In this document: in pieces, positions 23,712 to 39,483 of the stretch
Layout of the letters: each line of letters begins with the position of its first letter
Position numbering within the stretch: position 1 is the first letter of the stretch
Source of the DNA: Planctomycetota bacterium
GTDB taxonomy: Bacteria > Planctomycetota > Brocadiia > CAIUPP01
DNA length: 41,058 nucleotides
Direction of reading: 5' to 3'
Assembly: GCA_022705425.1 (NCBI GenBank)
Contig: JAKJEM010000003.1
Coordinates: 162,456-203,513 of the forward strand
The notes under the pieces: generated by a model
The model's database searches: none
What the model was told of the DNA's origin: nothing
The model's input: the letters and a program-made list of their open reading frames with translations, nothing else
Position numbers and translations under genes: made by a program

Positions 23712-25067
23712 ATGAGGATGACGATGCGGCGATGGGCGGCGCGGCTGGGCCGCGCCTTTACGCTGATCGAACTGCTGGTGGTGATCGCGATCATTGCGAT
23801 TCTGGCGGCGATGCTATTGCCGGCACTGGCGGCGGCGCGCGAGAAGGCGCGTCGCAGCGCCTGCTCGAACAACCTCAACCAGATGGCCAAGGCGCTGGTC
23901 AGCTATACCAGCGACTATAACGGCTACTACCCGAACAAGCCTGCGTACGGCGTCTCCAGCACTCACAAGAACTACACCTCCGGCGCGCCGGGCTCCTACG
24001 TCAACTACCGCGACCGCGGACGATATGAGGACCCCCTCACCGGCGACGTCGTCGAGAGCAACGCCGTTGCGGAAACCTTCTATCACGGCAGCATCAACTA
24101 TCAGGTCTATTCTGGCCCCCGCCACGATATGGCCATCGCCTTCGGCCAGAACACCAACACCGCCCACGCCGCGACCAGCGGCTACCGGGGAACCGACTAC
24201 CTCCAGGCCGCTCCCTGGGGGCTCGGCTATCTCGCCGCCGAAGGCTATGTGGACGACCTCAAGACCTACTACTGCCCCTCCTGGGACATCCCCGCCAACC
24301 GCATGAGCCTCTCCTCCGGTCTCTACGACTGCTACTACAATGTCGGCATGCCCATGGGCAGCGTCAACGTCCTCAACGCCGTCAAGGCCCTCGGCGGCTT
24401 TACCTCCAAGTACCTCCTTCGCGGGAACTACCGCGTCGCCATGGACACCCGCTCGGTCGGCGCCGCTTATCTTGGCGGGCGTACCTTCCTCACCTCCGGC
24501 ATGGATTCCTCCTACGGCTACCGCAACTTCGACGTGAGCAGTCCCAGCGGATGGGATGATGCCAAGCCCGGCACCGAACTCCCTGTTCACTGGACACGCC
24601 CCTTCATCAAGACCACCGTCGGCTGTCCTTCCTTCAAGACCGACAAGCACCTTGGCGGGCGCGCGCTCGTGGCCGACTCCTTCTTCCGTTCCTGCAAGGA
24701 CAACGGCAGAGTCGGCGCAAGCCTGCCGGCGGGCTCCCCCTTGCGGCCCGGCTTCGCGATGTATCACCATGGCGACGGCTACAACGTCCTGTACGGCGAC
24801 GGCAGTTCGCGCTGGTACGGCGACACCGAAGGCGTGATCGCCTGGTTCCTGCAGGCGCCCGCGACCAACGGCGCGGCTCTTCCCCAAACGGCCGGTTACG
24901 AGCCCTTCAACAACAGCGGTGCGAGCTTCGGCACCCCCGCGCAGACGACCATGGACGCCAGCCACTTGAACAAGAACGGGTCCACCTCCGCCAGTGGGCG
25001 TCAGACCATCTACCACCTGTTCGATACCCTTGCCGACATTGACATCAACACGACCCCTCTGCCCTAG
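23712..25067 (+). CDS. Prepilin-like protein with C-terminal H-X9-DG motif
   Basis: A 451-residue secreted pseudopilin-like protein. The type IV N-terminus is [20 protein letters not shown], with Glu at +5 of the mature chain and Ala in place of the usual Gly before the cut (A15/F16). [19 protein letters not shown] follows as in DUF1559-type proteins. The C-terminal H-X9-DG motif is complete: H353, then DG at 363-364. The middle is a Tyr/Gly/Asn-rich beta region. Hundreds of such proteins occur in some PVC genomes and are probably assembled by a type II/IV machinery. AAGGAGG precedes the ATG. It is second in the locus after lacI and closed by a terminator, so it may be expressed apart from the enzymes downstream. 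Confidence 0.9.
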
Positions 25068-25128: not shown

Positions 25129-25269
25129 CAGGCGTCGTCCAATCCGGAAGTCCGGGCCGATGTCTTGAAGCGGCTCTGCGCCAGTCGGAAGACGGCGCCC
25201 GGCGTCGTCGTTGCGGGCGTCACTTCCTCGGCGGCGCGCGGGGAGTCTGTCCTTGGAGGAGTTTCTGCG

Positions 25270-28200
25270 ATGCATCGTTTCGTGCTGCAGACATGTGTGC
25301 TTCTTGTCGTGGGCGTTGTCGGGTGGGCATGGTCGTGCGTGTCGGTCTCCGCCCAGACGCCGCCCGCGGCCAGCGTCGTCACGAACGGCGACGCCGAGAC
25401 CCTGGACGCGCGCGGCGCCCCGGAGGGGTGGTCGCTCTATCTGCGCAAGGGTAAGGCCGTGTTCGGTTCGGAGACGGACGAGCGAACTCCGGGCCGCAAG
25501 GTGGCGCGCCTCGAACTCCTCGATGCAGAGGCGAACTTCACCCTTCAGATCGGTCGGGCCGCCATCCCTCGGCAGGCGGAGGAGTCCACGTGGCTCTTCA
25601 CGGCGGAGGCCCGGAGCGAAACGGCCCCCGGCGCGCGCGTGGCGGCGTACTTCTGCCTCGGCCCGGCGGACGCGCTCAAGGTCGTCAGCCTTCCCCACAA
25701 CGCCGGCTGGCAGAAGCTGCGGGCGGCCGTAACCGTTCCGGCGGGGCAGGAGTTCGGTCGGCTGGATTTCAACGGCGGGGGCGGTCCGGCGGTGATCCGG
25801 ATTGACGCCGTGCGCCTCGTGCGACTGCCTCCGGAGGAGGCACAGGCGGAGAACGCGGCTCGACGTCGTCAGGAGCAGCAGCCGGAGACGGCGCTCACGC
25901 TCAACGCCGGCGAGCCGGTCCTTGTCCGGAAGATTCTGCCGCTGGACTGCCGCCTGGTGCGCGGCTTCGCCCATGCGCCGGTGGACGGCAGAACGGACAC
26001 CCGCCACGCCAAGGGCGGCCTCGGCGAGTGGAGCGGCCTCGGCGGACTGCCGGCGGTCAACTACCGGCTCTTCAATGGAAACAACGGGCTTCACATTCTG
26101 TTGCCGGAGGGGGGATTCGACGCATTGCAGCTTCGCGGAAGCTGGCGCGGCAAGGTCTATGCCGACTACGAGGGACTTCTACCGCCGGAGGACGGGCGCG
26201 CGACGCTGTGCGAGGTCGAGCCGCGGGCGGAGACCTTCCGGACGTCCTTTGACCCGCCGGTGCGCGCGCGGCGGCTGTCCTTCTTCTATGCCGACACGCA
26301 GGAGAACCGGGCGTTGGCCGACGTCGCCTTCTTTCAGGTGCGGCGGGGCGCTTCCTTCCAGGGCGGGGGCGCAAGCGCGGCGCTGGAGATCGGCGACGAC
26401 GCCCCCGCCGACGAGGCGTTGCTCGGGGCGATCCGGACGCGCTTCGGGCCGGGGGCGCGGACCTTTCGGCTGCGCGAGGGGCCGGGGCGCGGCGTGACGC
26501 TGCGCGAGAAGGAGTCCCTTCATCTGATCACCCCGCTGCAGGACCCGGCCTGGGGCGTGGCGGCGGTGAGTGTGGAACTGGACGTCGCCCGTGTCGAGCT
26601 CGACGGCGCGTTGACGGTGTCCGTTCAGGATGTCCTGGACCCCCGGCGCGAGGCGATGGGGGCGGACTTCGCCCTGCGGACGCCGGGACGTTACACGATC
26701 ACCCTCGATGTTCCGGACCAGGCCTTTCTGCCCCCGCGCGAGCAGTGGGGGCACGCGCCGCGCCTGGAGGACCCGCTCGCGCCGCCTCCGGCGGTGTGGC
26801 TCTCCCTGGCAGCAGGGGCCGGCCTGGAACTGAAGGGCGTCAAGGTGACGCTGCACCGGATCCCGCGCGCGGACGCCCTGGTCGAGGCTGGGACCTGGCG
26901 CAAGTTCCTGGTGCGCGGGCTCTTCTCGACGATGAGCGAGCCGCGGCCCTGGATGCATCTGGTGGACCAGAAGCCCGTCCGCGAGCAGATCGCCGCCGAC
27001 GTGAACATCAAACCCTACGTGACGTCGCTGGTCGAAGTGCTGGAAAACGTCGAGCTCGCGCGCCTGCTGCTGCCGGCGGACGACGTTGCGCGGCAGTACC
27101 AGGAGTGGGTCTATCAGAACATGGAGCGACGCAAGCCTCGGCCGCCTCCGCGTCTGCCCGATGTCCCCGGCGCTCCGGGCTGGGCCGTGGCCGTGCGCGA
27201 GACCTGGCGCAGTCTCGAGGCCTCGGCGGCGTGGTGGCTGGCGAACCGCCTGGTTCCGAACGGGGAGTTCGGCGGGGGGGTGAACGACGACACCGACCTC
27301 TTCCAGGTGTGGCAATGCCTGCCGATGATCGAGAGCGCGCCGCTCGGCGACGCCCTGAAGGACGCGGCGGCGCGCCTGTCGGAACTGGCGGTGACGCACA
27401 AGCTGGAGGAGGGAATCAACCGGCAGACGATGGACGCGCTGCACGCCTACGAGGAGGGTGTGAACCACCTCGCCCTCTGCGCGTGGTGGTTCTACGGCGA
27501 CCCCGTCCACTTCGGGCGGGCCATGGATAGCGCCCGGTCGGCCATGAAGCTGATGGTGGACCTGCCCGACGGGCGCGTGCATTTCGGCGGTGATCACGTC
27601 GGCATTGAACAGGCGCGCAAGGGGTTCGAGAAGCTCGGCGCCTCCCCCGGCGGCGGCAACTGGGCCCCGGCGCGCCTGTTCCTGCATCCGATGTACGTCG
27701 TGGCCTGGTACAACCGGAGCCCGGCGGTCATCGAGCGTTTCTCGCGTTGGGGGACGACCTGGGCGAACTACCAGAAGCCGGGCGAGTTCGTCGGCAAGGT
27801 GGACATCGCCACCGGCAAGCCCATCCTGTCGGCCAAGCCGACTGCGACGGGCACGGCCGTCGGGCCGGTGGATGAATGGCTGGCGCTCTACCAGGTGACC
27901 GGCGACGCGAAATGGCTGACGCCCTTCAAGCAGCTCCTCGACTCGGGCGGATACACCGGGACGACGACGGCCTACGGGCGTTGCGCGCATGCGCTGGTGG
28001 AGTGGGGCGACCCCTACCAGGAGATCGTGCGCCGCCGGTTCAGCGGGTCGGGCAGCGGCTACGCGGGGTTCTTCCTGACGAAGGACCGCGGGATGCTGGA
28101 CTCCTGGCTGAACAACTCGGCCTCCTGGTTCGGGCGCTTCCGGTACATGAATGCGGAGGCGGAGCAGAAGACCGACCGCGTCCTGACGATGAACGCGTCG

Positions 28201-28896
28201 GCGCCGATCTCCTGCTACCTCGGCGACGCGCCGAACCGGAACCGTTTTCTCAACTTCATCGCCGTCAGCTACGAAGGGCTGCGCGGCGAGGACTTCGCGG
28301 CGCTGGTATGGGACGCAGGGCCGGCGGCGTTGCGCGTGGCGATTCACAACTTCACGGACAGGCCGCTGGCGGGCCGGATGCGCGTGTGGCGGCTGGACCA
28401 CGGGCGGTACAAGGTGGCCGTGGGGCCGGACGCGGACGACGACGCGCAGATTGACGAGGGCGCGGCGGAAGTGACGATGGCGGAATTGGGACGATACTCG
28501 GCGATCCCCCTGGCGTTGCCGCCGCGCCGGACGACGGTGGTGCAGGCCGAGCAGGTCGAGCGGCTTGACGACCTCCTGGCGCGCGCGGACCTGGCGCTGT
28601 CGCCGCTGGATTCCGGCTGGCGGCCCGACGGCGCCTTCGAGGCGCGGGTGCACAACATCGGTTCCTCGCCGGCGCGGGAGGCGCGCGTGGCCCTGCTGCG
28701 CGACGGCCGCCCCGTGGAGGAGGTCATTCTGCCGGAGATCGAGGCGCCGCTGGACCTTCACCCGCGCCGGGTCTCCGTGCGCTTCAAGGACGCCCGGCCC
28801 GGCGACGTCGTCGTGGCCGATCCGGCGGGACTCATCCCGGAGATCGCCGAACACAACAATCGTCTTGCCGTGCCCGCAAAGCCGACGAAGCCATAG
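25270..28896 (+). CDS. Large secreted protein: CBM-like N-terminus, helical middle, CARDB-like C-terminus
   Basis: A 1208-residue protein that I cannot assign to one family. The ATG at 25270 has GGAGGA nine bases before it and opens onto a signal peptide (LQTCVLLVVGVVGWAW, then a cut near SAQ). Residues about 30-180 form a carbohydrate-binding-like beta domain (STWLFTAEARSE, PHNAGWQKLRAAVT) that recurs in the GH20-like protein downstream. A discoidin-like part follows (FNGNNGLHILLPEGG). Residues about 630-950 are helix-rich with AAWWLANRLVPNGEFGGG and NHLALCAWWFYGD, like alpha-toroid polysaccharide lyases or GH-type barrels. The end (about 1100-1208) resembles CARDB (ARVHNIGSSPAREARVALL). A polysaccharide lyase or glycosidase is likely but unproven. 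Confidence 0.8.
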   Translation: MHRFVLQTCVLLVVGVVGWAWSCVSVSAQTPPAASVVTNGDAETLDARGAPEGWSLYLRKGKAVFGSETDERTPGRKVARLELLDAEANFTLQIGRAAIPRQAEESTWLFTAEARSETAPGARVAAYFCLGPADALKVVSLPHNAGWQKLRAAVTVPAGQEFGRLDFNGGGGPAVIRIDAVRLVRLPPEEAQAENAARRRQEQQPETALTLNAGEPVLVRKILPLDCRLVRGFAHAPVDGRTDTRHAKGGLGEWSGLGGLPAVNYRLFNGNNGLHILLPEGGFDALQLRGSWRGKVYADYEGLLPPEDGRATLCEVEPRAETFRTSFDPPVRARRLSFFYADTQENRALADVAFFQVRRGASFQGGGASAALEIGDDAPADEALLGAIRTRFGPGARTFRLREGPGRGVTLREKESLHLITPLQDPAWGVAAVSVELDVARVELDGALTVSVQDVLDPRREAMGADFALRTPGRYTITLDVPDQAFLPPREQWGHAPRLEDPLAPPPAVWLSLAAGAGLELKGVKVTLHRIPRADALVEAGTWRKFLVRGLFSTMSEPRPWMHLVDQKPVREQIAADVNIKPYVTSLVEVLENVELARLLLPADDVARQYQEWVYQNMERRKPRPPPRLPDVPGAPGWAVAVRETWRSLEASAAWWLANRLVPNGEFGGGVNDDTDLFQVWQCLPMIESAPLGDALKDAAARLSELAVTHKLEEGINRQTMDALHAYEEGVNHLALCAWWFYGDPVHFGRAMDSARSAMKLMVDLPDGRVHFGGDHVGIEQARKGFEKLGASPGGGNWAPARLFLHPMYVVAWYNRSPAVIERFSRWGTTWANYQKPGEFVGKVDIATGKPILSAKPTATGTAVGPVDEWLALYQVTGDAKWLTPFKQLLDSGGYTGTTTAYGRCAHALVEWGDPYQEIVRRRFSGSGSGYAGFFLTKDRGMLDSWLNNSASWFGRFRYMNAEAEQKTDRVLTMNASAPISCYLGDAPNRNRFLNFIAVSYEGLRGEDFAALVWDAGPAALRVAIHNFTDRPLAGRMRVWRLDHGRYKVAVGPDADDDAQIDEGAAEVTMAELGRYSAIPLALPPRRTTVVQAEQVERLDDLLARADLALSPLDSGWRPDGAFEARVHNIGSSPAREARVALLRDGRPVEEVILPEIEAPLDLHPRRVSVRFKDARPGDVVVADPAGLIPEIAEHNNRLAVPAKPTKP

Positions 28897-28947: not shown

Positions 28948-29760
28948 GTGCATCGCATACTGCCTCTTGTCCTGGGCGTTGGGGTGTGGTGCGCTGCGGC
29001 GCTGGCACTGGACGTCAAGCCCTCCGATTTCGGCGGCGCCCGCCCGGAGGGCCCCTGCGAGATCGTCGTTCCGCGCGTGGACACGCCGCCGGCGATAGAC
29101 GGCGACCTCGGCGACGCCGTCTGGGCGCAGGCGGCGGCGGCGAAGCCCTTCTGGCGCGCGGGGGCGAACGTCCTGGCCGAGGAGCAGACGATCGCCTGGC
29201 TGTGTTTCGATCGCGACAACCTGTACGTGGCCTGGGCCTGCCTGGATGCCAAACTGGTGGGGGAGCCGGTGGCGCGCGACGACAAGGCCATCTGGCGGCA
29301 CGACTGCGTCGAGGTGTTCCTCAGCCCCGAGCGCGACGCGAAGACCGAGCGGCAGTTTATGCTCAGCGTCGAGGGGGCCGTTTACGACCGCCGTCCCGGC
29401 GCGGAGTACGGTCCCGGCGGGGCGGACTGGAACCCGAAGTGGGAGGGCAAGGTGAAGCGCCAGCCCTGGGGCTACACCGCGGAGATGCGCCTGCCCTTTG
29501 CCGAACTGCTCGATGCGCGGAAGTACCCGGTGGGGCGAGGATCGGTTTGGACGATGAAGCTGACGCGCCAGGACCGCGGCGACCATTCCGGCACGCGGAC
29601 CTCCTCCTGGACGCCGATCGGCCCCAACACGGGCGACCTGCGCGCGGTGGGGCGGTTGATCTTCGAGGACCGCAATCTGCTGGCCAACGGCGGTGGGATG
29701 GACGGTGACGTCCACGAAGGTCACCGCCACGGTGCGCTCGACGGCGGAGGAACGCACTGA
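28948..29760 (+). CDS. Exported CBM9-like domain; probable 5' part of a frameshifted GH20 gene
   Basis: The frame gives 270 residues. It starts at a GTG with GAAGGAGA upstream, and has a signal peptide (LPLVLGVGVWCAAALAL). A CBM9/DOMON-like domain follows: PAIDGDLGDAVWAQA, LCFDRDNLYVAWACLDAKL, DCVEVFLSPERDAKT, and a final RLIFEDRNLLANGG. Such domains bind glycans or sit in front of glycosidases. After NLLANGG the frame reads a short meaningless tail (DVHEGHRHGALDGGGTH) to the stop at 29760. Another frame from 29693 carries on as GWTVTSTKV, exactly where a domain homologous to the start of the 25270 protein should begin. I infer one gene, 28948-33445, with a frameshift near 29690-29700. Confidence 0.82.
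   Translation: MHRILPLVLGVGVWCAAALALDVKPSDFGGARPEGPCEIVVPRVDTPPAIDGDLGDAVWAQAAAAKPFWRAGANVLAEEQTIAWLCFDRDNLYVAWACLDAKLVGEPVARDDKAIWRHDCVEVFLSPERDAKTERQFMLSVEGAVYDRRPGAEYGPGGADWNPKWEGKVKRQPWGYTAEMRLPFAELLDARKYPVGRGSVWTMKLTRQDRGDHSGTRTSSWTPIGPNTGDLRAVGRLIFEDRNLLANGGGMDGDVHEGHRHGALDGGGTH
29690..29701 (+). other. Apparent frameshift site between the CBM9-like part and the GH20-like part
   Basis: At GGCGGTGGGATGG the upstream frame loses homology and the +1 frame gains it. Removing one G of the GGG run would join NLLANGG to WTVTSTKV without a stop. The cause could be a true mutation, a sequencing error in a G run, or programmed frameshifting. Confidence 0.65.
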
Positions 29761-32700
29761 AGGCGCGCGCGGGGCAAAGATCGAGGTCGGAAACCGCCAG
29801 GGCGAAGGGGCGGTCGCGCGCGTGTGGCCGGGGGCCGACTCCCTGCCCTCGGCGCCGGTCGAGACGACCTGGCTCTTCACCGCCGACGTCAAGGCCGTTT
29901 CGCCGGACGGGTCGCTCGTTGCCTACTTCGTCGTCTTCCATGAGGGGCGGACGGAACAGGTCAACTTCAAGCACAACGCCGGGTGGCAATCCGTCCGCGC
30001 CGTCGTGACAACGTCCGCCGGCGCGCGTCCGGCAGCGCCCTGCATCCAGACCACAGCGCAGGCCAGGCCGGGCGGGGGCGGCGGGGGCGTGATCTACGTG
30101 GACCGGGCGCGCATCGAGATCGTGGACGCGCAAGCGCTCGGCATCGAGCCGGACAGCTTCTGCCTGACGGGCAACGCCACGAACGCCTGGCGCACCCGCA
30201 ACCGGCGCGTGCCCGGCACGTACACCTACTTCGAGGCGATGACGACCGACCCCTCCTTTCCGCCCTACTATGCCCCCGGCGACGGGCCGCCCCAGGACTA
30301 CGGCCTGTACCGCGGTGAGATCCCCTTCGACAAGGGCCGGCTGACCGACGGGCTGACCTCGACCACCGTCGCCTGGCCCTCCTTCTGGACGGGCCATCAG
30401 GGGCACGACATCCTCTTCGACCTGAAGTCGGAGTACGAAATCACGCGCGTGGTCATCAAGACGAGCTGGCCGGGGCTGCGGATGAACCACGTCTTCCTCA
30501 AGTCCCCCGGCGAACCGGTCTTCACCCTGGTGGCCTCGAAGCCCGACCGCGTGGCCTTCAAGGGCACGGGCGGCCCGATGCCGGGGTCGGAGACAATCGA
30601 GCGCGTGGATGAGCGCTGTTTCGAGGGCATCCGTCAGGCGGCGCGGTGGGTGAGGGTTCAGAGCGAGTGCCGCTCGCCCGGTCAGTATGCGGAGATCGAA
30701 ATCTGGGGGAAGGAACTGCCGAAGGACGGCCCGCGACCGAAGCGCACGCCCTGGCTCCAGGCCGGCGGCGCAACGCCCTTCCCCGACCCCGTCGGCGAGC
30801 CGGAGCCGACGTGGGAGGTCCCGCCGGTCTTTCCGCTGCCCCGGGAGATGAAGGCGCAAGGCGCGGCGACGCCCCTGGTCGGGGGGTTGACGATCGGCTT
30901 CGAGCCTGCCGCCAGCGCGCGGGCGCGCACCACGGCGGAGGTCCTGCGCGACGAACTCAAGCTGTGCTTCGGGCTCGAGTCGGTCGTGACGCCGGCCGCC
31001 GCCGAGCGGAAGGAGGCCGTCCTGATCGGCGAGGCCGCCGAGTCCCCCCTGACGTCGGCGGCGCTCGCGGCGCAGGGGCTGACCGTCACGCCCGCCTCGC
31101 CGGGGCCGGAAGGGTACGTCCTCTGCGCCCGCGACGGGCGTATCGTCATCGGCGGCAGCGACGCGCGCGGGGCCTTCTACGGCATCCAGACGCTGCTGAC
31201 CCTTGCCCGCAGGACGCGCGCCGGGACGTGGGAAGTCCCCGGCGTCGTCATCCGCGACTGGCCGACGATGAAGTATCGCATCATCGAGGGCCGCGCCATT
31301 CCCTCGCAGAGCCTCGTCCGCGCCCTGGCGCGCTTCCGCGTGAACTACTACACTCCGAAGTACCAGTTCATCCACCAGAGCGTCGAGCATGACAAGTTCG
31401 CGGAACGCTACTTCGTCAGCTTCATCCCCTTCCTCGACTTCAACGGCATCGTTATAGGCACGGACCCCTCCCTGGCCGAGCGTCCGGCGGATGAGCGGTG
31501 GCAGGACCTGCCCAACGACGCGCGGCGCAATGCGAACCCGGGCCATCCGCGCACCTGGGAAATCTACTTTGCCGCACTGGACAAGTACCTCCCCAAGTTC
31601 CACGGCGACATCCTGTACATCGGCATGGATGAAACCTACCAGCACAACCACGGCTCGCGCTGGAACGTTTCGCCGGAAAGCCGGGCACTTGACATGTCCG
31701 CCGGACAGCTCCTGGCCTACACGATCAAGAAGATTGACGCCAAGGCCAAGCAATATGGCAAACGCGTCTTCATGCACGACACGCCCTTCTGTCGCGACCA
31801 CACCCTCAGCTACAAGGGCGACCCTGACCCCAGTTGGCGCAAGGCGATTCCCCTCCTGCCGAAGGACGTGATGTTCAACGTGTGGCACTGGAACAGGAAA
31901 TGGGTCCTCGAACCGCTGGGGAAGCAGGGCGGCTTCGACCTGGTGTACCTGTGTACGGGCGACCGGGACTGGCGCGCCCCGGCAAAGGTGGACCCGGACC
32001 AGGACGTCGTGCCCTTCGAGTTCCCCGGCTATTTCGCGGGGATCAACAACTACATGGCGGAAGGCAGCTTCACCGCCAGCAAGCTGCTCGAGACGGCCTG
32101 GGTGGCGTGGAACGCCGGCGCGCCGCGCCCCAAGGACCCGGCGATCAACGCGGCCGTGGCGCACTACACGGCCCTCTGGAATCAACTCCACCTGGGCGAT
32201 CCCATTCCCGCCAGCCTGGCCGCCGGGGCGGGGGACTTCATCCCTGTGGACCTTTCCGCTGCGGCGAACCTCAGCCGCACCGACGAAATCGCCTATGACG
32301 GAAAGGGCTGGGTGGACATGGGGCCGAACATGGACCTCCGCGCGCTGAAGCCCGGCGTGATTTCGATGGCGGGCGTTCCCTTCACGATCATTGACGAGGC
32401 GAAGAACGGCGGCAAGAGCGTCGTGGCCGTCCAGAACCGCCTGTACGCCGACAGGACCCTCCCGGAGGCGGTGGAGATTGACGTCAAGGAACTCAAGGCC
32501 TCAAGCCTGGTCTTCCTGCACTGTCTCGACAACGCGCCCGGCTCCAACTATCTGCGTCGGAAGGAACTGGCCGGCTACTACTTCCTCGTCTTCGAGGACG
32601 GGACCTACGCCCGGCGGGAGATCAAGTACGCCATCAACACCGGCAACTGGGACGGGCTGAGGCTGCCGTGGGAATACGGTCCGGCGGGCGACACGATGCC

Positions 32701-33445
32701 CTTCGGCAAACCGGCCTGGCGCGGGCGAACGATGTCCGGCCTGATGGCCACCCTGTACATGACGGAGTGGGCGAACCCGCGCCCGAACCTGCACATCCGG
32801 AAGATCATCCTTCGCGCAACGCACGACCCCGGCATGATGAACCCCATGCTGCTGGCGCTGACGGCGATCCACCCGCGACATGCCGCCCCGCCGGCGGCGG
32901 AGCCTCTTCCCTCGGCCGACCTGCTGAGCCCCGCGCGTCCCGTCGGGACGCCTCTGGACCTCTCGGGCGGGCGCGACGAGTCCGAACTGCGCTATGTCGC
33001 CCCGGACGGCACGATCATCGAGACCGACCGCATCGCCAACGCCTTGAGCGACAAGAAGAGCAGCGCCTTCTCGAATGACTGGCGCTCCTATGTCGGCCTG
33101 GTTACGATGGACGGCCACCAGGCCGCCCGCACGGACCAGGTGAGATTTACCCTCCCCGGACCGACGCCCCTGACGGGGGTGCTGGTCACCGGGCGCTACC
33201 GCGAGCAGCGCAAGGCGCAGGACTTCGGGCCGATGATCTTCGACCTCTTCCTCGACGTGTCGGAGGACGGCGGCAAGACGTGGCAGCAGAAAGCGGTTGT
33301 CCGCCACACGACGCCGGATGAGGTCGGGCCGGTGTGGCTGCCGCTCGACGGAACGCCCGTGCAGCGTCTGCGCCTGCGCCAGACGCAGGGACCCAATACG
33401 CACTACTCCGGCTTCAGTTTCGTGCAGCTCTATCGTCGCCCGTAG
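29693..33445 (+). CDS. GH20-like glycosidase with CBM-like and C-terminal modules (3' part of the frameshifted gene)
   Basis: About 1250 codons, with no ribosome site or signal peptide at its own start (a GTG at 29693), consistent with being the continuation of the CBM9-like frame. Order: a CBM-like domain (TTWLFTADVKAV, KHNAGWQSVRAVVT), a discoidin-like region (YEITRVVIKTSWPG), and the GH20 domain 2 (ARTTAEVLRDELKLCFGLE, IVIGGSDARGAFYGIQTLL). A TIM barrel follows with the catalytic Asp-Glu pair kept in ILYIGMDETYQ (D646). The last 100 residues resemble a beta-sandwich (FDLFLDVSEDGGKTWQQKA). GH20 enzymes remove beta-N-acetylhexosamine through the acetamido group. The usual GGDE is GMDE here, so exact activity is uncertain. 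Confidence 0.85.
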   Translation: MGWTVTSTKVTATVRSTAEERTEGARGAKIEVGNRQGEGAVARVWPGADSLPSAPVETTWLFTADVKAVSPDGSLVAYFVVFHEGRTEQVNFKHNAGWQSVRAVVTTSAGARPAAPCIQTTAQARPGGGGGGVIYVDRARIEIVDAQALGIEPDSFCLTGNATNAWRTRNRRVPGTYTYFEAMTTDPSFPPYYAPGDGPPQDYGLYRGEIPFDKGRLTDGLTSTTVAWPSFWTGHQGHDILFDLKSEYEITRVVIKTSWPGLRMNHVFLKSPGEPVFTLVASKPDRVAFKGTGGPMPGSETIERVDERCFEGIRQAARWVRVQSECRSPGQYAEIEIWGKELPKDGPRPKRTPWLQAGGATPFPDPVGEPEPTWEVPPVFPLPREMKAQGAATPLVGGLTIGFEPAASARARTTAEVLRDELKLCFGLESVVTPAAAERKEAVLIGEAAESPLTSAALAAQGLTVTPASPGPEGYVLCARDGRIVIGGSDARGAFYGIQTLLTLARRTRAGTWEVPGVVIRDWPTMKYRIIEGRAIPSQSLVRALARFRVNYYTPKYQFIHQSVEHDKFAERYFVSFIPFLDFNGIVIGTDPSLAERPADERWQDLPNDARRNANPGHPRTWEIYFAALDKYLPKFHGDILYIGMDETYQHNHGSRWNVSPESRALDMSAGQLLAYTIKKIDAKAKQYGKRVFMHDTPFCRDHTLSYKGDPDPSWRKAIPLLPKDVMFNVWHWNRKWVLEPLGKQGGFDLVYLCTGDRDWRAPAKVDPDQDVVPFEFPGYFAGINNYMAEGSFTASKLLETAWVAWNAGAPRPKDPAINAAVAHYTALWNQLHLGDPIPASLAAGAGDFIPVDLSAAANLSRTDEIAYDGKGWVDMGPNMDLRALKPGVISMAGVPFTIIDEAKNGGKSVVAVQNRLYADRTLPEAVEIDVKELKASSLVFLHCLDNAPGSNYLRRKELAGYYFLVFEDGTYARREIKYAINTGNWDGLRLPWEYGPAGDTMPFGKPAWRGRTMSGLMATLYMTEWANPRPNLHIRKIILRATHDPGMMNPMLLALTAIHPRHAAPPAAEPLPSADLLSPARPVGTPLDLSGGRDESELRYVAPDGTIIETDRIANALSDKKSSAFSNDWRSYVGLVTMDGHQAARTDQVRFTLPGPTPLTGVLVTGRYREQRKAQDFGPMIFDLFLDVSEDGGKTWQQKAVVRHTTPDEVGPVWLPLDGTPVQRLRLRQTQGPNTHYSGFSFVQLYRRP

Positions 33446-33468: not shown

Positions 33469-34836
33469 ATGCCACAGCGCTGCTTCGACGTGCATGCCGA
33501 CGGGGACTATGACGTGATGGTCGTCGGTGGCGGGACTACCGGGATCGCCGCCGCTCTTGCCGCCGCCCGCGAAGGCGCGCGGACGGCTCTTGTCGAGGCG
33601 CTGGGATTCCTTGGCGGGAACTCCGCCGCCGTTCCGGCCTGGCTGGGCTTTCATGACGGCGTCGGCGAGCGCGTCGTCGGCGGCATCGCGCAGGAGATCG
33701 TCGAGCGCCTCCAGCGGCGGAAGGGGGCGACGCCCGTCTATACGGACCCCATCTGCGGCAGCGTGGTGGGGATTGACCTCAGCGCCTGGAAGCTGCTGGC
33801 CTTGGAGGCGGTGCGCGAGGCGGGGGTGGACACGCTGCTGCACAGCCGCGCGGTGGCCGTGGACCTCAAGGGTCCTGCCGTGTGCGCCGTGCTCTGCATG
33901 GACCGCGCCGGGCTGCGCCGGCTGGGCGCGCGCGCTGTCGTGGACTGCACCGACGCCGGCGACGTCGTCCGCGCCGCGGGGGGGAGACTGCGCCGGGGCC
34001 GCGAGAGCGACGGCCTCATGCAGGTGGCCTCCTGGACCTTCGCCGTGGAGGGCGTCAACTTCCCGGCCCTGTTCGACCACTACCGCCGCGTCCCGGGCGA
34101 CATCCGTCCCTTTCCCGGCGTGGACGGCGGCGAGCGCCTCCGCCGCATGGCGAGCGACGAGGTCTTCGTCATAGGGTCCTTCCGCTCGTTGATCGCTCGC
34201 GCGCGGAGGGAAGGAATGTCCCTGCCGCGCGACATCTTTCCCGGCGTCGCCTTCCCGCGGCTCGGACGCGTCTTCAGCGTCGCCACGCGCGTCGAGGAGG
34301 CCGATCCGCTCGATGCCCGCTCCCTCACTCGCGCCGAGTTTGCCGGCGCCGGCCAGGTCCCCCTGTGGCTGGATTTCCTGCGCCGCTACGTTCCCGGTTT
34401 CCAGGACTGCCGCCTGGCGTGGACGCCCCACCAGATCGGCCTGCGCGAGACCTGCCACACCGAGGGGGACTACACGCTGACCGCCGACGACCTGATGGCC
34501 GGACGACAGTTCGACGACGCCATCGCGCGCGGGGGATACCACATGGACGTTCATCCCCCCGATCACGCGGGGCTGGACACGCGCCGTCCGCCGGCATACA
34601 CGATTCCCTATCGGTGCCTGCTGCCGCGCGGCATCCAGGGGTTGCTGGTCGCCGGGCGCTGCATCAGCGCCACGCACGAGGCCATGGCCTCCACGCGCGT
34701 CATTCCCATCGGCATGGCCCTGGGGCAGGCCGCGGGCGTGGCGGCCGCATTGGCGGCCCGGTCGGGTGTGGAGCCGCGCGCCGTGCCCGTTGCTCTTCTC
34801 CAGGCCCGCCTGCGCGAGGCGGATGCCTTGCTCTGA
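33469..34836 (+). CDS. FAD-dependent oxidoreductase (pfam12831-type)
   Basis: A 455-residue flavoprotein. The Rossmann motif VMVVGGGTTGIAAALAAAREG starts near residue 17, followed by GFLGGNSAA. ARAVVDCTDAGDVVRAAGG marks the second nucleotide contact, and GLLVAGRCISATHEAMASTR with IGMALGQAAGVAAALA closes the FAD site. Such proteins are frequent beside sulfatases and glycosidases in PVC genomes; their substrates are mostly unproven, with sugar oxidation suspected. No signal peptide. The ATG at 33469 has AAAGGA upstream; earlier in-frame codons lie inside the GH20 gene. It is followed after 18 bases by a double version of itself. Confidence 0.9.
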   Translation: MPQRCFDVHADGDYDVMVVGGGTTGIAAALAAAREGARTALVEALGFLGGNSAAVPAWLGFHDGVGERVVGGIAQEIVERLQRRKGATPVYTDPICGSVVGIDLSAWKLLALEAVREAGVDTLLHSRAVAVDLKGPAVCAVLCMDRAGLRRLGARAVVDCTDAGDVVRAAGGRLRRGRESDGLMQVASWTFAVEGVNFPALFDHYRRVPGDIRPFPGVDGGERLRRMASDEVFVIGSFRSLIARARREGMSLPRDIFPGVAFPRLGRVFSVATRVEEADPLDARSLTRAEFAGAGQVPLWLDFLRRYVPGFQDCRLAWTPHQIGLRETCHTEGDYTLTADDLMAGRQFDDAIARGGYHMDVHPPDHAGLDTRRPPAYTIPYRCLLPRGIQGLLVAGRCISATHEAMASTRVIPIGMALGQAAGVAAALAARSGVEPRAVPVALLQARLREADALL

Positions 34837-34854
34837 ACCATAGGAGAAGCCTTT

Positions 34855-37800
34855 ATGCCCGCCGGAACGCGCCGCATCGCCGCCCAGGTTACCCAACTGC
34901 TGTCCACGGACGCGCTGGTGGTCGGCGGCACGTTGGGCGCGTGCGCGGCGGCCCGCGAGCTGGCACGGGCCGGACGCCGCACCGTGCTGGCGGCGCGGGA
35001 GTGTTCGCTGCCCTTTGAAATGAGCGTCTGCCGCCGTCCCTGGGTTCGATCCGGCGAACTCGCCGCCCTGCCGACTCCGTGGCGCGCGCTCCTCTCCGCG
35101 TGCGTCGAGGGCGGCCTGGGCGGCGGAGAGCATCTTCTCAACCTTGCTCGTCTGGCCGCGCGGGTGGAGGAGGCTCTGCTCGACGCCGGGGTAACGCTCT
35201 TCTACGGCATGACGCCGTGCGGTCTTGTGCGCGCGGCGAAGGGCGCGCCCGCCGGGGTCCTGTTCGGCGGCAAGTTCGGCCTGTGTGCCATCGCCGCGGA
35301 GACCCTTCTCGATTGCACCCCCGATGCCGCGCTGGTGGCGGCTGCCGGGGGACGGGTTTACTCGCGCGTCAAGGACCGCGCCGTCGTTCATCTCTCCTGC
35401 AAGGTGAACCAGGCGGCGGATGGAGACCCGCTGACTCTGGACCGCGGGCAGCGGTGCGAGTCCCCCACGAAATGGCCCGACGCGCGGGAGTTGCGCCCCT
35501 CCGGCGTGGCGGCCCTCACGGGGGGCCGCGTCCCCCTGCACGGGCCCTTCGCGGAGTTCATTCTGCGGCTGCCCTTTGCTCCCGAGTCGCCGTTGCGCGA
35601 CAGCCGGCTGGCCGTCGCGGCGCGGCGGGCGGTTCTCGATGTTGGGGCCGCCGTCGCCGCCGACCGCGCCGCTGCGGGCAAGGAGCGCCTCTTCTTCCAC
35701 CGTTTCGGCGATGGGCTCCTCACCGAACCGCTCGTCCGCATCGCCGGCGCGCCGGGGAACCCCTTCCGTTCGCGCGGATTCCGCAACCTCTTCGTCCTGG
35801 GTCCCGCCGCCGATGTGCCCGACTCCGCCGCGCGCCGCCTGTGGAGTCCCTGTCATGCCGCGCGCGAGGCCGTCCGCCTGGCGGCGCGTCTGTCGAAGGT
35901 CCGGATCAGGGCGTCCGCGCACGGTTCGGACGTCGCGTCCCCCGCCGGCGCGGGCCAGGGCGTCTCCATCCGACGCCTTCACTTTCAGGATGCGCCGCCG
36001 CTGCACGCCGTGGGAACGCTTCCGCTGGCCGACGGGTCGTTGCCCGTGCTGGCGCAGTGCGATACGCTGGTCGTCGGCGCCGGCACGTCCGGCGTGCCCG
36101 CCGCGCTCGCCGCCGCGCATTTCGGCGGACGCACGATCCTGATCGAGCAGCACGCCGACGTCGGCGGGACGCGGACAATCGGGGGGGTAGGGTCCTACTG
36201 GTTCGGGCGCGAGACGCCCTTCCAGCGCGCCTGCGACGAGGCGTACGACCGCGTGTCCCGGCGGTGCGCCGTGGCGGAGGAGACGGCGATGCTCGCCGCC
36301 TTGGTCGAGGCCGGGGTCGAGGTGCTGCCCCTTTCGTCCGTTGCGGGTGTCCTGTGCGAAGGACGCCGCGTGACGGGTGTAGCGGTGGCCGCCGGGGGGA
36401 GGCTGGGGGTGATCCGCGCGCGGGCGGTCGTGGACGCCACGGGGGACGCGGACCTGGCGGCCTGGGCCGGCGCGCCCTTCGAGTACGGCAACGGGCGCGA
36501 TGCATGGACGCTGTGGGCCTCCTTCGCCGATTTCAACGGGCCGAAGCGCACGGCCAGTCGAATGTATGAGTCGGGCATCGAAACGCGCGACCCGTGGGAC
36601 TTCGCGCGCACGATCCTTCGCAGCCGTGGTCGTCCGGGGATGTGGAACCGGTTGCCGCACGAGATGCCGCAGCACTATGTGGCGCCGCGCGAGTCGCGAC
36701 GCGTCGCCGGGCGGGCACGCGTGACCTACGCCGGCATCCTGGCGGGCGAGACCTTCCCCGACGTGATGGTCGTGTGCGACGCGAACTTCGACCTCAAGGG
36801 AATCGCCACCAGCGACCTGCTGTGCTCGGGCGTCGTCTGGAGTTGGGGTGTCTGCCGGCGGTACCTGGCGGCGATCCCGTACGGAGCGATCGTCCCTCGA
36901 AGCGTGGAGAACCTGCTGGTGGCGGGGCGGGCGTATTCCGCCACGCACGACGCCATGAGCCTGGCGCGGATGCAGCGCGACATGGCGAGCCTCGGCGCGG
37001 CGGCGGGCACGGCGGCGGCGCTGGCGGCGCAGCAACGGGTGTCGCCGGGGCGGCTGGACGCGGAGACGCTCCAGGCGGAGTGGGTTCGGCGAGGAATCCT
37101 GCGTGCGGAGGATCGGCGGCGGTGGGGGCGGTTGCCGGAGCGGTACGGGCGCGGTGAGGCGGCGGAGGATGCGCGTCGTGTGGCGCGTGGCGGGCGGGAA
37201 TGGCCGCGCGCGGCGGCGCGGCTGGCGCGCCATCCGGCGGCGGCGCTGCCGGCGTTGCGGGGGGCCTTTCGCCCGGCGCGGAAGGGGCCGTCCGGCCTCC
37301 GGATCGGACGCCTGCTGTGCGCGCTCGGCGACGGAGGCCCCGTTTCCTTCCTTCTCGATAACACGGCGCAAAGGACAGCGACCCGCCTGCCGCCGCCGCG
37401 CCGTCGAACGCTGCGGGTCCCCCCGGAGCATGGTTGGGCGCCCGAGCCGGCGTACTCGCTCTACGCCGTCGGCCTGGCCGGGGCCGGCGCGCGCGCGGCG
37501 GAGGTGATGACGCGCCTCGCGCGGAGGATCCCCGACGATGCCGCACTCTATGCCGATCCGAAGCGCTCGCCCTTCGAGTACGTGCGGACGATCTGCGCCG
37601 TGGCCGAACGCTGCCCCGGCGTCGCCCTTCGTGCGCCGCTCGAGGAGCTTCTGCGGAAGTCGAGTCTGCGCAACCAGGACGTGTCCTTCACCCGCGACGT
37701 TCGCCGCGCGAACGACCCCGTGGCCGAGCGCCGCGCGTGGCTGGAGATGGCGATCGGGCGGGCGCTGGCGCGGTGCGGCGATGCGCGCGGCCTCGACATC

Positions 37801-37920
37801 CTGCGGCGGTACCGGGATGACGTCCGGGGGCCGCTGGCGCGCAGCGCCGAGGAGGAGTTGCGTGACCTGGCCGCCGCCGGGTTCGCCAAGACGATACCCT
37901 GGAAGCGGAGGATTGACTAG
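34855..37920 (+). CDS. Double FAD-dependent oxidoreductase with a HEAT-like C-terminal region
   Basis: A 1021-residue protein made of two flavoprotein halves. The first starts DALVVGGTLGACAAARELAR (about residues 19-38), a degenerate dinucleotide motif (GGTLGA), and retains only a shortened core (FVLGPAADVPDSAARRLWS), so it may not bind FAD. The second starts DTLVVGAGTSGVPAALAAAH (about residues 402-421) and is complete, with GGTRTIGGVGSYWFG, VDATGDADLAAWAG and LLVAGRAYSATHDAMSLAR. The last 160 residues are helical repeats (AEVMTRLARRIPDDAAL, ARCGDARGLDILRRY), similar to HEAT/PBS-lyase repeats. It has AGGAGA before the ATG, and its stop codon directly touches the next start. Substrate unknown; it was probably formed by duplication of the upstream gene type. 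Confidence 0.87.
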   Translation: MPAGTRRIAAQVTQLLSTDALVVGGTLGACAAARELARAGRRTVLAARECSLPFEMSVCRRPWVRSGELAALPTPWRALLSACVEGGLGGGEHLLNLARLAARVEEALLDAGVTLFYGMTPCGLVRAAKGAPAGVLFGGKFGLCAIAAETLLDCTPDAALVAAAGGRVYSRVKDRAVVHLSCKVNQAADGDPLTLDRGQRCESPTKWPDARELRPSGVAALTGGRVPLHGPFAEFILRLPFAPESPLRDSRLAVAARRAVLDVGAAVAADRAAAGKERLFFHRFGDGLLTEPLVRIAGAPGNPFRSRGFRNLFVLGPAADVPDSAARRLWSPCHAAREAVRLAARLSKVRIRASAHGSDVASPAGAGQGVSIRRLHFQDAPPLHAVGTLPLADGSLPVLAQCDTLVVGAGTSGVPAALAAAHFGGRTILIEQHADVGGTRTIGGVGSYWFGRETPFQRACDEAYDRVSRRCAVAEETAMLAALVEAGVEVLPLSSVAGVLCEGRRVTGVAVAAGGRLGVIRARAVVDATGDADLAAWAGAPFEYGNGRDAWTLWASFADFNGPKRTASRMYESGIETRDPWDFARTILRSRGRPGMWNRLPHEMPQHYVAPRESRRVAGRARVTYAGILAGETFPDVMVVCDANFDLKGIATSDLLCSGVVWSWGVCRRYLAAIPYGAIVPRSVENLLVAGRAYSATHDAMSLARMQRDMASLGAAAGTAAALAAQQRVSPGRLDAETLQAEWVRRGILRAEDRRRWGRLPERYGRGEAAEDARRVARGGREWPRAAARLARHPAAALPALRGAFRPARKGPSGLRIGRLLCALGDGGPVSFLLDNTAQRTATRLPPPRRRTLRVPPEHGWAPEPAYSLYAVGLAGAGARAAEVMTRLARRIPDDAALYADPKRSPFEYVRTICAVAERCPGVALRAPLEELLRKSSLRNQDVSFTRDVRRANDPVAERRAWLEMAIGRALARCGDARGLDILRRYRDDVRGPLARSAEEELRDLAAAGFAKTIPWKRRID

Positions 37921-39483
37921 ATGAACGCGGACTCCGGCGCCCCCCGTCGCGCTCCGAACGTCCTCTTCATCCTCTCGGACCAGCATAATGCGAAGTGCCT
38001 GGGGCACAAGGGGCACCCGGATGCGCTGACGCCGAACCTGGACCGTCTGGCCGCAGCAGGGGTGCGCTTCGACAACGCCGTCGCGCAAAGCCCCATCTGC
38101 ACCCCGAGCCGCGTGTCCTTCCTCTCCGGTCAATACTGCCACAACCACGGCTATTACGGTCTCTGCGGGCCGAATCCCGGCGGGCTCCCGACCGTGCTCG
38201 GCTGTTTCCGCCGCGCGGGATACGCCACGGCGGCCATCGGCAAGATTCATTGCCCGGAGTACTGGGTGGAATCGGACTGCGACGTTTTCCACGAGACCGG
38301 CACGGGGACGAGCGTCGGCGGGCGGTCGCCGGAGTACACGCAGTACCTGCGCGAGCGGAACGTGGAGCACCTGGAAGACCATGGGGCGCTGACGGAACTC
38401 GGCGCGGCGGGGCAGCAGAAGCTCGACGGGCGTCCCTCGGCCATCCGCTACGAAGACAGCCGCGAGGGCTGGGCCGCGCGGAAGGCCGTCGAGTTCATGG
38501 GCGCCTGCGCCGACGCCGGGCGGCCCTTCTTCCTGCACGTGAGCATGGCCAAGCCGCACCAGTGTTACACCCCGGCGAAGCGTTTCTGGGACCTGTACGA
38601 CGAATCGAAGCTCACGCTGCCGCCGAACCTGGAATATGCGATGAAGGACCACGCCCCGCACGTCGTTCGCGCCGCCGAACGTTTCCGCCGCGCGGACTGG
38701 ACCGTCTTCGAGCCGAAGACCGTCGAGGCCGGCCGCCGCCGCAAACTCCACGGCTACCTCGGCAACGTGACGCACGTGGACTACGCCGTGGGCGAGCTTC
38801 TCGATGCCCTGCGCACGCGCGGGCTGGAGGGCGACACGCTGGTCGTCTATTCCTCCGACCACGGCGATTACGCCTGCGAGCAGGGATTGATGGAGAAGGC
38901 CCCCGGCATCGGCCACGATGCCATCACGCGCATTCCCTTCCTCTGGCGCTGGCCCGGACACTTCCGCGCGGGACACTGCGCGCCGGAGATCGTCGAGAGC
39001 GTGGACCTGGCGCCCACGCTTTGCGCCCTGGCCGGCATCGAGCCGCCGGGGACCTTCGACGGTCGGGACCTCTCGGCGTTGCTGCGGGGCGAGGGGGGCG
39101 AGGTGCGGCGCATCGGCGTAACGGAGTTCCCGTGGAGCAAGAGCGTCCGCAAGGGGCGCTTCCGGCTGGTCTATTACCCGCCGGAGATGTTCGCGCAGGA
39201 GTATCCGCAGGGGTTCGGCGAATTGTACGATCTGGAGCGCGACCCCTGGGAGATGGAGAACCTGTTCTTCCGCCCGGAGTACGCGGAGGTCGTGCGCGAG
39301 ATCCAGGCGGACCTTCTCGACTGGCTGGTGGTGACCGCGCGGCCGAGAACGGCGCTGGCCGTTCGCCCGCTTCATCCGCGGCAGGCCGTCGAGCGTTACA
39401 AGTGCTGGGTCTATGCCGACGGCAAGCTTTCACCCGAGGAGTTGCGGCGGGCGTCCGCGCAGGGACGACAGAACTACCTCTGA
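37921..39483 (+). CDS. Type I sulfatase
   Basis: A 520-residue formylglycine sulfatase. NVLFILSDQHNAKCLGHKG holds a metal-binding Asp (D20). The signature CTPSR at C60 is the canonical form. HVSMAKPHQCYTP and VVYSSDHGDYACEQGLMEK supply further active-site residues, and the tail YDLERDPWEMENLF is typical. It belongs to the sulfatase S1 group with resemblance to choline-sulfatase/heparan-type members; the sugar substrate is not predictable. No signal peptide, like the sulfatase at 2635. The ATG follows the upstream TAG with no gap, with GGAGGA eight bases before it inside that gene, so coupling is strong. It would desulfate saccharides for the GH20-like enzyme. Confidence 0.94.
   Translation: MNADSGAPRRAPNVLFILSDQHNAKCLGHKGHPDALTPNLDRLAAAGVRFDNAVAQSPICTPSRVSFLSGQYCHNHGYYGLCGPNPGGLPTVLGCFRRAGYATAAIGKIHCPEYWVESDCDVFHETGTGTSVGGRSPEYTQYLRERNVEHLEDHGALTELGAAGQQKLDGRPSAIRYEDSREGWAARKAVEFMGACADAGRPFFLHVSMAKPHQCYTPAKRFWDLYDESKLTLPPNLEYAMKDHAPHVVRAAERFRRADWTVFEPKTVEAGRRRKLHGYLGNVTHVDYAVGELLDALRTRGLEGDTLVVYSSDHGDYACEQGLMEKAPGIGHDAITRIPFLWRWPGHFRAGHCAPEIVESVDLAPTLCALAGIEPPGTFDGRDLSALLRGEGGEVRRIGVTEFPWSKSVRKGRFRLVYYPPEMFAQEYPQGFGELYDLERDPWEMENLFFRPEYAEVVREIQADLLDWLVVTARPRTALAVRPLHPRQAVERYKCWVYADGKLSPEELRRASAQGRQNYL

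Follow-up and report, generated by a model that had tools for sequence, protein, structure and literature searches.

A CBM9-GH20 gene of a Planctomycetota bacterium probably interrupted by the loss of a short coding segment

Two reading frames of the window (the whole stretch of 41,058 nucleotides that was analysed), one carrying a CBM9 domain and one a GH20-type enzyme, appear to be the two parts of one gene that was broken once. This reading is well supported by sequence comparison. We consider it highly probable that the gene was interrupted by a small deletion, either real or introduced by assembly, and not that it is decoded by a programmed frameshift. The source assembly comprises 288 contigs and is 92% complete, with 4.9% contamination. 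The features of the region are as follows.

23712-25067, upstream of the broken gene: prepilin-type leader protein.
25165-28896, upstream neighbour: secreted protein of 1208-1243 residues; its N-terminal jelly-roll domain is shared with ORF2 (34%).
28948-29694, forward strand: frame 1, the 5' part of the gene, with GTG start, signal-peptide-like leader and CBM9_1 domain, ending in RNLLANGG.
29692-29701, forward strand: junction GGTGGGATGG, the probable site of a loss of about 26-35 bases; 2 residues from NG to W, against 11-14.
29695-29760, forward strand: out-of-frame tail of frame 1 up to TGA, free of homology; the high-GC third position shifts to the other frame.
29696-30157, forward strand: jelly-roll (galactose-binding-like) domain lacking its N-terminal segment; 34-35% identity to the neighbour's domain at 25363-25830.
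30140-30750, forward strand: CLTGN...F5/8-type-C-like region; weak F5_F8_type_C match, under the cut-off, aligned in 6/6 intact homologues.
30821-32092, forward strand: GH20b domain and GH20-type catalytic barrel with Asp-Glu pair (IGMDET), from Pfam, profile and alignment.
32093-33445, forward strand: C-terminal region of the enzyme to the stop, from full-length alignment with homologues.
33469-39483, downstream, same direction: two FAD-dependent oxidoreductase-like genes, then a sulfatase (37921-39483).

Frame 1 extends in total from the GTG at 28948 to the TGA at 29760. Its start codon is preceded by GGAAGGAGAGAAACC, with a strong Shine-Dalgarno-like stretch (AAGGAGAG) upstream, and the CBM9_1 domain (PF06452) occupies residues 50-222 (Pfam E-value 4.4e-9). 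Frame 2, which is the +1 frame and corresponds to ORF2, has 1250 codons (29693-33445); it is open from 29660 to 33442, has its stop at 33445, and its homology starts at GW, position 29696. A preliminary description of this DNA had stated that a secreted CBM9-like frame loses its sense after NLLANGG, that the switch lies at the G-rich GGTGGGATGG, and that a +1 frame without start signals continues with a domain homologous to the neighbouring 1208-aa protein. The results agreed with these statements. Similarity of frame 1 to its homologues stops at NLLANGG, and the switch site was found at 29692-29701. Residues 2-142 of ORF2 match the domain of the upstream neighbour (E-value 1.7e-13, 34% identity). 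ORF2 lacks a leader, and nothing resembling a ribosome-binding site precedes GTG 29693, its first start codon. The main body of the upstream neighbour has no confident Pfam assignment, and a C-terminal CARDB match falls just under the cut-off.

The GC content of third positions was 0.89 in frame 1 up to 29694, 0.90 in frame 2 beyond, and 0.88-0.89 in the intact neighbours. The high-GC third position switches from frame 1 to frame 2 around 29620-29680. Taken as a whole, the two-frame arrangement is much more than chance would give. In ORF2, the GH20b domain (PF02838) lies at residues 377-523 (Pfam E-value 8.3e-19). The group profile A3 matches GH20 crystal structures such as 4pys (E-value 2e-31) and 6q63, and the catalytic Asp-Glu pair is retained, since IGMDET aligns with GHDE, TDE and SDE of the relatives. 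Signs of decay, such as more lesions or lost codon bias, were absent from both parts (1250 codons open, third-position GC 0.90), so a real lesion, if any, would be recent. The lack of a further lesion, the undisturbed codon composition and the Asp-Glu pair all fit either a faulty assembly or a very recent deletion.

The evidence for one gene comes from intact homologues. Among 392 genomes of the phylum that were sampled, the full architecture was present in 3 (6 genes), and all 6 full-length homologues are uninterrupted single frames of 1582-1726 codons from stop to stop. The joined window protein has 1498 residues, close to the enzyme of about 1500 residues proposed earlier, and the 6 homologues align with it end to end at about 25% identity, all being distant and from other families of the phylum. 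The alignment spans the CBM9, jelly-roll, F5/8C-like, GH20 and C-terminal parts. Because colinearity with these single-frame homologues extends over the entire joined protein, the two frames are best taken as one gene, broken once. None of the homologues examined that encode both parts does so as separate proteins. The protein L056, from the same class, has CBM9 directly followed by such a jelly-roll domain in one frame (...RNLLTNGNFEGAVSDKQVPDGW...). A close homologue was not found in 75 genomes of the class and one other genome of its family. Contigs of reference genomes gave only a distant Edaphobacter GH20-like match and no near copy of the junction, and viral contigs gave neither a related locus nor a near copy of the junction. 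The in-frame TGA codons of three GH20-like matches (L046, L047 and L018) were considered and rejected as ordinary C-terminal stops. The homologues L051 (genome G199) and L052 (genome G134) each adjoin a large tetratricopeptide-like repeat gene (1047 and 1389 codons), so the neighbourhood may be conserved in that family.

The length of the junction indicates what kind of lesion this is. From NG (N-E in one case) to the first Trp, the 6 intact homologues and L056 have 14, 14, 11, 14, 14, 14 and 14 residues, and the upstream neighbour's own copy of the domain has 13 in the matching stretch (NGDAETLDARGAPEGW). In the joined window protein, this gap is 2 residues for a +1 join and 3 for a -2 join. 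Counted in bases, 7 separate the NG codons from the Trp codon in the window, against 33-42 in the relatives; we therefore infer that the jelly-roll domain has lost an estimated 26-35 bases from its beginning. Losses of this size, being 2 mod 3, match the change of frame that is seen. So short a join means that some coding sequence has been lost, rather than simply translated out of frame. In a model of the neighbour's domain (two-sequence AlphaFold, with a modest pLDDT of 75.8), residues 12-15 (ETLD), within the missing stretch, form a beta strand, so skipping one base would not give the normal protein back. The only direct repeat at the junction is the 5-base CGGTG at 29691 and 29703, which is uninformative on the origin of the deletion; a 17-base repeat of 76% at 29687 and 29741 was set aside as probably due to chance. 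As to the cause of the loss, we give a little over even weight to a mutation that arose recently in the strain sampled and a smaller, though substantial, weight to an assembly error. We lean toward a real deletion or strain variant because base-calling errors do not typically remove about 30 bases.

The best surviving alternative is a single-base error of sequencing or assembly, with one base extra and a naturally short linker. Removing one base does join the frames, and the site is GC-rich. However, the linker would then have 2 residues, against 11-14 in the 7 comparators and in the neighbouring paralogous domain, and by codon composition no other broken genes are evident in the window; we think this explanation improbable. 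Programmed +1 (or -2) frameshifting at the junction, yielding mostly the CBM9 fragment and a smaller amount of the full enzyme, is less probable still. It would agree with two long conserved frames free of decay signs, and the 71 bases 3' of the site fold slightly better than shuffled sequences (z = -1.9; 8 of 200 as good), but such a z value is unremarkable for GC-rich DNA. Moreover, the protein joined in this way is still 9-12 residues short of every comparator, the tract at the site is just GGG with no known slippery motif by inspection, and none of the CBM9-GH20 homologues examined is split or needs a shift. A literature search for programmed frameshifting among glycoside hydrolases that bear carbohydrate-binding modules returned no paper combining them. 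The earlier proposal of a "broken or programmed-frameshift" gene stands in its first half, by virtue of the colinear homologues, and is not supported in its second.

Equally hard to credit is the view that two genes are translated independently here, one for a secreted CBM9 protein and the other for a GH20 protein started from GTG 29693 or later. Shorter GH20 relatives with their own leader are known (L054, L055 and L058), but these have a signal peptide and start at the CLTGN domain, whereas ORF2 begins inside the jelly-roll domain and has neither leader nor RBS-like stretch near GTG 29693; homologues with both parts are single frames. Non-standard decoding across the junction, with a regulated balance between secreted CBM9 fragment and shortened full enzyme, is the least probable of all.

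In its uninterrupted form, the gene would encode one large secreted multidomain protein, predicted to be a GH20-type beta-N-acetylhexosaminidase-like enzyme. Its domain order would be signal peptide, CBM9, jelly-roll, F5/8C-like, GH20b-GH20 and C-terminal domains. The sequence as written would yield only a secreted CBM9 fragment of 270 residues, and the enzyme part would be left without an export signal or an evident start of translation. The downstream genes at 33469-39483 are probably one glycan-degradation cluster, and the gene setting suggests the breakdown of sulfated polysaccharides containing amino sugars. Annotation should treat the two frames as a single interrupted CBM9-GH20 gene, neither as two proteins nor as a case of recoding. 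The residue count at the joint, compared with intact relatives, is a simple test that separates a deletion from a one-base change of frame.

Genes with small deletions in metagenome-assembled genomes, whether pseudogenes or strain-level lesions, likewise carry just one lesion, their frame being intact elsewhere; in the window, a deletion and an assembly fault look the same. Like the GH20 beta-N-acetylhexosaminidases, the window protein has GH20b (PF02838), a group-profile match to GH20 structures and the Asp-Glu pair. In contrast to them, it is divergent, with no Pfam match to the GH20 catalytic domain, adds CBM9, jelly-roll and C-terminal regions, and has an interrupted frame. The CBM9_1 (PF06452) proteins of the phylum (L056 and L051-L053) likewise have a signal peptide, an N-terminal CBM9 and then a galactose-binding-like domain, but theirs is one chain, whereas in the window the chain is broken where those two domains meet.
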